Of a stretch of 64,000 nucleotides of DNA, positions 38,281 to 49,227 are shown in pieces; the stretch's first letter is position 1, and the number at the start of each line of letters is the position of its first letter. Source of the DNA: an uncultured Prochlorococcus sp. (GTDB lineage Bacteria > Cyanobacteriota > Cyanobacteriia > PCC-6307 > Cyanobiaceae). The notes below the pieces were generated by a model. That model had not been told where the DNA came from, did no database searches, and saw only the letters and a program-made list of their open reading frames with translations. Where the stretch lies: NCBI GenBank assembly GCA_902538515.1, contig CACBFH010000001.1, positions 124,001-188,000 of the forward strand, in the 5' to 3' direction. Both the position numbers and the translations under genes were made by a program.

Positions 38281-39054
38281 ATGAGTGGGTTTAATTTTGA
38301 TGTAATTACACTTTTTCCTAAAGCTTTTGAATTAATAAATAATTTGGGAGTAATAACAAGAGCTATAGATAATAATTTGATTAATGTGAATTTGCATGAT
38401 TTAAGAGAATTCGGAGAAGGATGTTATAGGCAAGTGGACGATAAGCCATATGGAGGTGGCTCAGGCATGGTTTTAAAACCGGGGCCTATATATGAAGCAC
38501 ATGATTCAATCAATAAAAGTTCAAAAAGTAAAACTATATTAATGACACCTCAAGGTAAAGTTCTTAAACAAAAAGATTTTATAAGATGGACATCGTTAGA
38601 TCAATTAATAATAATATGTGGTCAATATGAGGGTTTTGATGAAAGAGTTCGTTGCTTAGCAGATGAAGAAATTTCTATAGGAGATTATGTCCTATCTGGA
38701 GGTGAAATCCCAGCAATAACAATAATTAATGGGGTAACAAGATTATTGCCTGGAACACTCGGAGACCCCAACTCTCTATTGGATGAAAGTCATAATAATT
38801 TTTTATTGGAATACCCACATTACACAAGACCCTTGATATTTAGAGAAATGAAAGTTCCAGATATTCTCATTAGTGGTAATCATAAAGAGATTAGTTTATG
38901 GAGAAAAACAAAAATGTATGAAAGAACTTTGTTGAAGAGAAATGACTTAATTAAAATGGTCAACGTTTCGGATTTTCATCAAAGAAATACCGATTCAAAT
39001 GATAATCTGAATTTTTATTTGCAGGAAGAGAACGAAACATATCCTGACTGGTGA
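38281..39054 (+). CDS. trmD: tRNA (guanine-N1)-methyltransferase
   Basis: [50 protein letters not shown]. Confidence 0.97.
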
Positions 39055-39226
39055 GGACAAAATTCAGACACATTAATCAACAAAGCAAAAAAAGATTTTT
39101 ATCTTAAGGTTGGAATATATCTTAATTTTCTAAAGATTCTTAAAAAAGGTTTCTATTCACTATTAAGTAATTCATAAGTGTAACTAGCATTATTAAGTTC
39201 AAAATTGTACTTTTTATTGCTTAAAA

Positions 39227-39748
39227 CTAATATATTACTTCAGATGCCACCTCAAAGTTAAGCTTTGATCTAGCTTTTAATGCTGAGAGTTCAACAACAA
39301 CCGATAAGCCAGTAATTATCTTATTTTGTTGACTTAATAAATTTGCTATGGCATTTACAGTTCCACCAGTAGCTAAAAGATCATCTACGATTGCAAAACT
39401 TTTATAAGGTTTTAATGATTCTAATTGTAAAACCAAAGAATTATTACCATACTCAAGTTCATATGATGATTTAATTAATTTCCCTGGTAATTTGCCAGGT
39501 TTTCTTGCAAGAATAAACGGTTTTGATAAATAATATGACATGCTGGATGCAAATATGAAACCTCTCGCATCAACAGCAACAATACATTCTGAATCTTTTA
39601 TTAATGGCCGATCAGACATCTTTTTGATAAGCTCTGAGAATAATGTTGGATCTCTCAAAATAGGGGTAATGTCTCGAAATAAAATATTCTTCGTGGGGAA
39701 ATCTTTATAATTTCCAATTTTTGCCTTAAGTTCATCTGAAAACATCAT
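39227..39748 (-). CDS. apt: Adenine phosphoribosyltransferase
   Basis: DFPTKNILFRDITPILRDP, VAVDARGFIFA, AIVDDLLATGGTVNA. Confidence 0.95.
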   Translation of the reverse strand: MMFSDELKAKIGNYKDFPTKNILFRDITPILRDPTLFSELIKKMSDRPLIKDSECIVAVDARGFIFASSMSYYLSKPFILARKPGKLPGKLIKSSYELEYGNNSLVLQLESLKPYKSFAIVDDLLATGGTVNAIANLLSQQNKIITGLSVVVELSALKARSKLNFEVASEVIY

Positions 39749-39858
39749 ATTAAATGGAAATTATTTAAAAAAATTTTGAATAAATTTTTATCACTTATTA
39801 TATATTTGATTTGTAAATTAAAAAAAATAAAAGGTTTTAAACTATTATCAAAAATTGA

Positions 39859-40035
39859 TTGAATAAATTTTTTAAGGTAGACAGGATTTTAAGTATTCAG
39901 TTTTTATCTAGAGATGATTTTATTTGAGATAAAAATAAAATTTCAGAAATATTAGTTAAAAATGGACATAAGATTGTTTTTAAAAACTATCCATGGCTAA
40001 CTAAAGGAGATATCTGGGCTGTTTTTAATAGATAA
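39859..40035 (+). pseudogene. Decayed small ORF with internal TGA; C-terminal part resembles DUF433-type antitoxins
   Basis: Own translation LNKFFKVDRILSIQFLSRDDFI*DKNKISEILVKNGHKIVFKNYPWLTKGDIWAVFNR*; TGA at 39925-39927. Confidence 0.4.
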
Positions 40036-40224
40036 ATTAATAATAAATTTTCTGCCAAAATAAATGTGTAGCAAAAATCATTATTCTCCTTATTCTTTAA
40101 AGGTACTTTCCCTTGGTAAAATAATGAGTAAGGAGGAAAAAGTATCATTAAATGTTAAGTAAAATATCCATTTGGAATTACATATTAGTTACAGGTGGTT
40201 TAATGATGCTCCAAATCTATTGGT

Positions 40225-40725
40225 ATGAATAGAAAATCTCCACTGTTTCGCATCGGTAATGGATATGATATTCATAGACTAGTCAAGAAAAGAGATTTAA
40301 TTATTGGAGGTGTTAATTTACATCATCCAAATGATTTAGGTTTGGACGGTCATAGTGATGCTGATGTTTTAAGCCACTCAATTATGGATGCATTATTAGG
40401 AGCACTTTCATTGGGTGATATAGGAAAGTATTTTCCACCATCTGATAAAAAATGGGAAAATGCTGATAGCTTGTTTTTGTTAACAAAAGTAATTGATTTA
40501 ATAAGACAAAATGGATGGGAAATAAACAATATTGATAGTGTTATTGTTGCCGAGAGACCAAAAATCATGCCCCATATAAAGCTAATGAAAAAAAATATTT
40601 CTGAGATCTTAAATATTGATGAAAATTTAATTGGGATTAAAGCAACCACTAATGAAAAATTAGGTCCAGAAGGTAGAGAAGAGGGTATAAGTTGCCATTC
40701 TGTAGTTCTGCTAGAGAAAAAATGA
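40225..40725 (+). CDS. ispF: 2-C-methyl-D-erythritol 2,4-cyclodiphosphate synthase
   Basis: [59 protein letters not shown]. Confidence 0.97.
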
Positions 40726-47942: not shown

Positions 47943-48197
47943 TTAAATTAATTTTTTCCCTTTCAATAAAAAAACAGGATTGTTTGGTTCTAGTCTTAGT
48001 CCCTCTGAGATACTTATGCTTTTGTAAGTCTGAATTAAATTTAAATTTGTTTTGAAATTTTTATCTTCTAATTGCTTTTTCAAATCTTTTATAGTTTGAA
48101 TATCTATTATCGGGATTAATATAATATCTCCAATATTCATATCTTTAGCAAGATTATTTATAATTAGAAGTTTAGTTTTTTTATCCCCCCCCCCCAA
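47943..48197 (-). CDS. cobL: 3' fragment of cobL (CbiT-like methyltransferase C-terminus), separated by frameshift
   Basis: GGGDKKTKLLIINNLAKDMNIGD continues the IGGG motif of the upstream ORF across the 11-G run. Confidence 0.85.
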   Translation of the reverse strand: MGGGDKKTKLLIINNLAKDMNIGDIILIPIIDIQTIKDLKKQLEDKNFKTNLNLIQTYKSISISEGLRLEPNNPVFLLKGKKLI

Positions 48198-49227
48198 TTA
48201 CTAATCTGTTAGGTTTTTCCAAAAAACTAAAACTTCTTGTATTTAAAATATCTTTTATATCTTCCTCAAAAATAAATTTTGGTTTAACGCCAAGTCTTTT
48301 TGCGTTCTCTAATATTAATGATTTTGAGCCAATTCTTTTATCGATACAAAATAAATCTAAATTAGGTCGTAGTTTTAATGCCTCTAAACCAATTGAACCA
48401 CAACCGGCCCCTATGTCCCAAATAACACCATTTTTAGGAAGCTCTAGATCAGCTAAGATTTGAATACGAACTTCTCTTTTTGTTAATAAATTTGGTCGAT
48501 CTTCAAAGGTTTTAAAAATAATATCGCTGATTCCAAAAAAAGGGAGATTATCATTTGAGTAATTTTTCTTTGTTTTCGTAAGAACAACAATGTTTAAACT
48601 TGATATATCAGATGGTAATGATTCTTTAAAATTTAATTTTCTTATATTTTCATTGTCGAAGCCTATCTCTTCACAAAGCCAAAAATCATAGAAGTCAATC
48701 AGATTTAATTCTGATAAGTTTTCTTTAATTATTTCTAAACTTTTATTATTTGAGTCTGTAATTATAGCCAAACTAGAGGGCCTTGCTTTAAGTGCCTCAA
48801 CTAACTTAGTAGAATCTCTGCCGTGAATACTTACATTAACAGTATTTTGCCACGGAATCTTTAACTTACTAAATGCTAATTGAATACAAGTATTTGAAGG
48901 GTAAAAACTTAATTCATCTTTTGAAAAATTTTCTAGTAATATTCTCCCAATTCCAAACCAAAGTGGATCTCCTCTAGAAATTAAAATAATATCAGTTTTT
49001 TGAGATTTAAGCCATTTAACAAGTTCATTATTACTTTTGCTCGAAAAAAATGATTTCTTTTTTAATAAACTATTTTCGCTCCATGATTTAATTTCTTCAA
49101 AATATGAATTTGGAACTGCAATATTTTCTGTTTCTAAAAATAAATTCTGTAATTTTAGAGATATATCTTCGAATTTATAAGAATTAATCCCAATTACATG
49201 AATTTTTCTACTTACTTCAGTCATCAA
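48181..49227 (-). CDS. cobL: Precorrin-6Y C5,15-methyltransferase (CbiE-CbiT fusion), frame ends prematurely in a poly-G run
   Basis: CbiE part VIGINSYK...ILISRGDPLWFGIGRIL; CbiT part KREVRIQILADLELPKNGVIWDIGAGCGSIGLEA...RLVIGGGG*. Confidence 0.9.
   Translation of the reverse strand: MMTEVSRKIHVIGINSYKFEDISLKLQNLFLETENIAVPNSYFEEIKSWSENSLLKKKSFFSSKSNNELVKWLKSQKTDIILISRGDPLWFGIGRILLENFSKDELSFYPSNTCIQLAFSKLKIPWQNTVNVSIHGRDSTKLVEALKARPSSLAIITDSNNKSLEIIKENLSELNLIDFYDFWLCEEIGFDNENIRKLNFKESLPSDISSLNIVVLTKTKKNYSNDNLPFFGISDIIFKTFEDRPNLLTKREVRIQILADLELPKNGVIWDIGAGCGSIGLEALKLRPNLDLFCIDKRIGSKSLILENAKRLGVKPKFIFEEDIKDILNTRSFSFLEKPNRLVIGGGG

Follow-up and report, generated by a model that had tools for sequence, protein, structure and literature searches.

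The split cobL gene

The window analysed here (the whole stretch of 64,000 nucleotides) is part of contig 1 of a 1.148-Mb Prochlorococcus assembly that comprises 50 contigs and is 74% complete. On the minus strand of this window lies a gene that is divided between two reading frames at a tract of 11 G. The 5' fragment (48181-49227, 348 aa) encodes CbiE and the first ~100 aa of CbiT and, because of the 11-G tract, ends with the residues NRLVIGGGG and a stop codon. The 3' fragment (47943-48197) encodes the remainder of CbiT in the +1 frame: its translation begins LGGGDKKTKLLIINN, it ends at the normal cobL stop and it contains no further lesion. When compared with NCBIfam, the 5' fragment matched both the CbiE profile TIGR02467 (111.4 bits, cut-off: 92.9, E-value: 3.7e-32) and the CbiT profile TIGR02469 (101.5 bits, cut-off: 78.3, E-value: 3.8e-29, profile positions 2-98 of 124), while the CbiT C-terminus was recognised in the 3' fragment. 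As both equivalog domains exceed their cut-offs, the split gene is cobL, which encodes precorrin-6Y C5,15-methyltransferase as a CbiE-CbiT fusion.

Read on the minus strand, the site consists of GTA ATT followed by 11 G (48195 to 48185) and then ATAAAAAAAC. The original prediction, made from the letters of this DNA, was that the upstream frame would here read VIGGGG-stop and that a run of 10 G would instead carry it into the 47943-48197 ORF. Both statements are borne out: as assembled, cobL does not form a single continuous frame, as it meets a stop after VIGGGG, and with 10 G the two fragments would be joined into a protein of ~426 aa. The joined frame resembles other Prochlorococcus CbiE-CbiT fusions (TIGR02467 plus TIGR02469, related to PDB entries 3e05 and 2bb3) in its domain order, in its length and in the flanking residues KPNRLVIGG and DKKTKL, and it is 88-91% identical to the cobL products of its nearest relatives. 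This copy differs from them in its +1 split and in having IGGG in the joined frame where the relatives have IGGC.

The tract was also predicted to be striking in DNA this rich in A and T, and it is above chance. No second run of at least 8 G occurs in the window, where 0.41 eight-base matches are expected, and no second run of at least 9 G occurs in the whole 1.15-Mb assembly. Under Markov models, 0.008-0.02 runs of at least 11 G are expected in 756 kb of this assembly. Elsewhere in the window (38281-40725), trmD and ispF are separate genes, divided by an apt-like gene on the minus strand; in the finished genome G012, TrmD and IspF share one frame of 406 aa.

The cobL site in related genomes

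A search of 267 Prochlorococcus genomes detected cobL in 210. Among the matches listed, the gene is open through the site and nearly all frames are 421-443 aa in length, with orthologues forming a single frame of 426 aa. A flank-anchored, site-specific pattern recovered 101 genomes, this one included. In all of the other 100, the site is occupied by 10 nt of the form GGN GGN TGY RA, encoding IGGC[D/N]K, and G11 is found in this genome alone. The tract (48185-48195) therefore replaces a 10-nt sequence of the GGNGGNTGYRA type, and the in-frame length at this position is 10. Relative to G012, the site shows four substitutions, all of them to G, and one inserted base. The original prediction had looked to the length of the G-run in related genomes: an in-frame length of 10 nt is universal among the 100, while a G-tract is present in none.

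The joined frame of this cobL would read IGGGDKK. The tract had been placed on an IGGG motif of the CbiT methyltransferase domain, but such a motif is not ancestral here; an ancestral IGGG was considered and rejected because the relatives encode IGGC at this site. As the 100 other genomes lack the tract, the G-tract allele at cobL is probably new in this lineage. In the CbiT structure 3e05 the aligned position reads IGGSG, so a cysteine in this motif is not universal, and an allele with 10 G may well be functional.

A second interrupted cobL was observed in the fragmentary genome G131 (AG-347-M23, L026), where the gene is cut at 362 aa beside an A7 run, ~30 nt 3' of the IGGC codons. This break is probably an error of the same kind as that proposed below for the 11-G tract.

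Selection on cobL and the requirement for B12

dN/dS in cobL was 0.138 before the tract and 0.149 after it (genus median 0.178, rank 30 of 107), values that give no sign of decay. The 3' part of the gene is under ordinary purifying selection. The possibility that cobL is an old pseudogene was rejected, as there is no second lesion in the gene and selection on it is not relaxed.

Pseudo-B12 is made and used by cyanobacteria, including Prochlorococcus (PMC9296465). The B12-dependent methionine synthase gene metH is present in this genome and is the only methionine synthase gene found; metE was found neither here nor in the complete genome of G012. Loss of cobL should thus be costly unless corrinoids are imported. 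The NrdJ profile TIGR02504 matched neither this genome nor G012, although this profile may represent the wrong subtype.

Assembly type and frameshift census

The pipeline used for Prochlorococcus single-cell amplified genomes (SAGs) combines phi29-type amplification, NextSeq 500 sequencing, SPAdes assembly and retention of contigs >2000 bp, with benchmarks of ~3 indels per 100 kb (PMC6122165, PMC5519541). The smallest (and last) contig of the assembly studied here is 2157 bp in length and its named nearest relatives are largely single-cell genomes, so the assembly is probably a SAG. With the terms used, a literature search found no account of homopolymer indels in SAGs.

In a frameshift census covering 756 kb of this assembly, 614 genes of G012 had a counterpart and were compared with it. 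Three of the 614 orthologues are frameshifted (0.4 per 100 kb), each by +1 within a homopolymer: cobL, a zeta-carotene desaturase gene (A6 to A7) and a gene that we take to be MPBQ-methyltransferase-like (A5 to A6). The last of these had no NCBIfam match at the cut-off used. The two frameshifts outside cobL are located at C3:65678-65691 (L250) and at ~19.8 kb of C11 (L241). In the reverse census, none of 598 genes was frameshifted in the finished genome of G012. Because a carotenoid-desaturase null is implausible in a free-living phototroph, this assembly very probably holds false +1 indels, and the frameshifts in the zeta-carotene desaturase and MPBQ-methyltransferase-like genes are probably technical as well. 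A uniformly error-ridden assembly was nonetheless rejected, since only three of the 614 orthologues are affected. This low rate counts against an artefact at cobL in that a single indel is not automatically an error.

Poly-G tracts across the genus

G-runs of at least 9 were gathered from genomes across the genus and their reading frame was judged against G012 proteins. Genomes were treated as isolate-like if they were at least 99% complete and in at most 20 contigs, isolate or single-cell status being judged from completeness and contig number only. In fragmentary, single-cell-like assemblies, 23 of 34 coding tracts of at least 10 G were out of frame, versus none of the three in the small isolate-like sample (Fisher P=0.047). 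With coding tracts of at least 9 G, the corresponding counts were 23 of 39 and 0 of 12 (Fisher P=0.0002); none of the five 9-G coding tracts in fragmentary assemblies was out of frame. Out-of-frame homopolymers are thus in excess in the fragmentary class relative to isolate-like genomes, as expected of technical indels. Eighteen of the 23 out-of-frame tracts are +1 shifts, as is that of cobL here, a bias that comes partly from selection because sampling at G≥10 is blind to deletions (9 to 8).

The genes broken by these tracts include psbC (photosystem II CP43), the gene for ATP synthase subunit a, pgk (phosphoglycerate kinase), ftsH, typA, lipA (lipoyl synthase), trmD and the gene for ribosomal protein PSRP-3. 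A phototrophic cell cannot be expected to live without psbC, pgk and the like, and most such frameshifts must therefore be technical. The cobL tract shares with the homopolymer-length errors of single-cell amplified and short-read assemblies the +1 shift, the concentration in the fragmentary class and the presence of indispensable genes among those affected, a likeness drawn from assembled sequence rather than from reads.

Lineage-specific coding G-tracts of 9-11 that remain in frame were observed at L268 (G019), L274 (G043), L282 (G060), L036 (G004) and L355 (G255). These replace or insert unrelated codons (QKHN to GGGD, KKKK to GGGE, KKK to GGG and an added GGG in a truB-like gene). Single-contig genomes also carry in-frame tracts of G10-11, namely in tilS of G019 (QKHN to GGGD) and at the KKKK to GGGE site of G043. 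Judged from these assembled genomes, G-tracts are repeatedly born in frame within genes of the AT-rich Prochlorococcus.

Outside coding sequence, the rpsK-rpoA intergenic region of many Prochlorococcus genomes contains a run of T and then one of 9-16 G (L035, L039, L042, L058, L061, L062, L264-L267, L272, L277, L278 and others). The length of the G-run varies and reaches 16 G in single-contig G033. This is possibly a conserved hypervariable tract.

Origin of the 11-G tract

The original prediction offered three options for the tract: a contingency locus, slippage that restores the frame, or an indel artefact. The evidence as a whole favours an artefact for the +1 length, and nothing speaks positively for a contingency locus. 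It also calls for a refinement, in that only the extra base appears to be technical, while the underlying tract is probably genuine, an in-frame 10-G allele specific to this lineage. We therefore consider it likely, with good confidence, that an in-frame 10-G allele has been recorded as 11 and that the break in cobL is not a biological switch. In this explanation, the codons for IGGC[D/N] (GGN GGN TGY G) would have become GGG GGG GGG G in this lineage, encoding IGGGD and keeping the frame. The +1 length would then have been gained during whole-genome amplification, library PCR, base calling or consensus. Because G-runs that are one base too long break indispensable genes in other fragmentary genomes, the break in cobL most likely stems from an error in sequencing or amplification. 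We infer that the template most likely carried 10 G and that CobL, at ~426 residues, is most likely intact in the living population.

A real slip from 10 to 11 G in the sequenced cell, which would make cobL null in that cell or in a small lineage, is an unlikely source of the extra base. G10 is intrinsically slippage-prone, the length of the tract is an outlier for this genome and the remainder of cobL is intact, as expected of a very young mutation. Against this, the sole methionine synthase detected requires B12, and similar out-of-frame tracts in similar assemblies strike indispensable genes, so that most of them did not arise in vivo. A broader proposal, that coding G-tracts of 9-11 arise repeatedly in Prochlorococcus in place of unrelated codons (QKHN to GGGD in tilS, KKKK to GGGE, GC to GG in cobL) and that some of them (including that of cobL) are real length-variable switches tolerated through transcriptional or translational slippage, seems to us quite improbable.

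It is very unlikely that 11 G are present in the genome and that slippage of RNA polymerase or the ribosome yields enough full-length CobL. Bypass of homonucleotide repeats, including those of G and C, has been documented in a laboratory evolution study (PMC3812077), and the cobL tract is similar to such rescued frameshifts in that it lies inside a homopolymer with the downstream sequence under selection. Purifying selection on the 3' part is, however, equally expected from an artefact, and the tract is not conserved at the cobL site. Isolate-like relatives also lack such broken genes: the absence of out-of-frame tracts among their 12 coding runs of at least 9 G, together with the absence of frameshifts in G012, suggests that the genus does not tolerate them.

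Poly-G contingency (phase-variation) loci are known in bacteria such as Neisseria and Campylobacter, where coding G-tracts of 10-11 change the reading frame by one unit. In length the cobL tract matches such established loci, and its position within the coding sequence suits on/off switching, here of B12 (pseudocobalamin) synthesis. In contrast to those loci, the tract is not conserved (0 of 100 other genomes), it lies in a housekeeping gene, encoding a metabolic enzyme for an apparently required cofactor, and no paired on/off alleles were seen among the assemblies, which would not show length variants. The literature searched held no account of slippage-based phase variation in Prochlorococcus, and we give a phase-variable cobL very little credence. 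We give equally little to the entire tract being a two-colour Illumina base-calling artefact over true IGGC[D/N] codons, for although G is unlabelled in two-channel chemistry (PMC11140927), the SAG pipeline used NextSeq 500, and one insertion and four substitutions, each of them to G, are packed into 10 nt, dark stretches should normally reach the end of the read rather than give way to correct bases again after 11 cycles, opposite-strand reads should reveal the true bases, and the single-contig genomes G019 and G043 likewise have lineage-specific in-frame G10-11 in place of other codons.

A true switch at cobL would mean that strand slippage controls whether a dominant ocean phototroph makes its own form of B12, an unexpected arrangement. 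The tract read as a 10-G allele recorded one base too long carries a caution instead: poly-G in fragmentary Prochlorococcus assemblies yields false pseudogenes in indispensable genes, and claims of gene loss or phase variation that are based on such tracts therefore need to be supported by reads.
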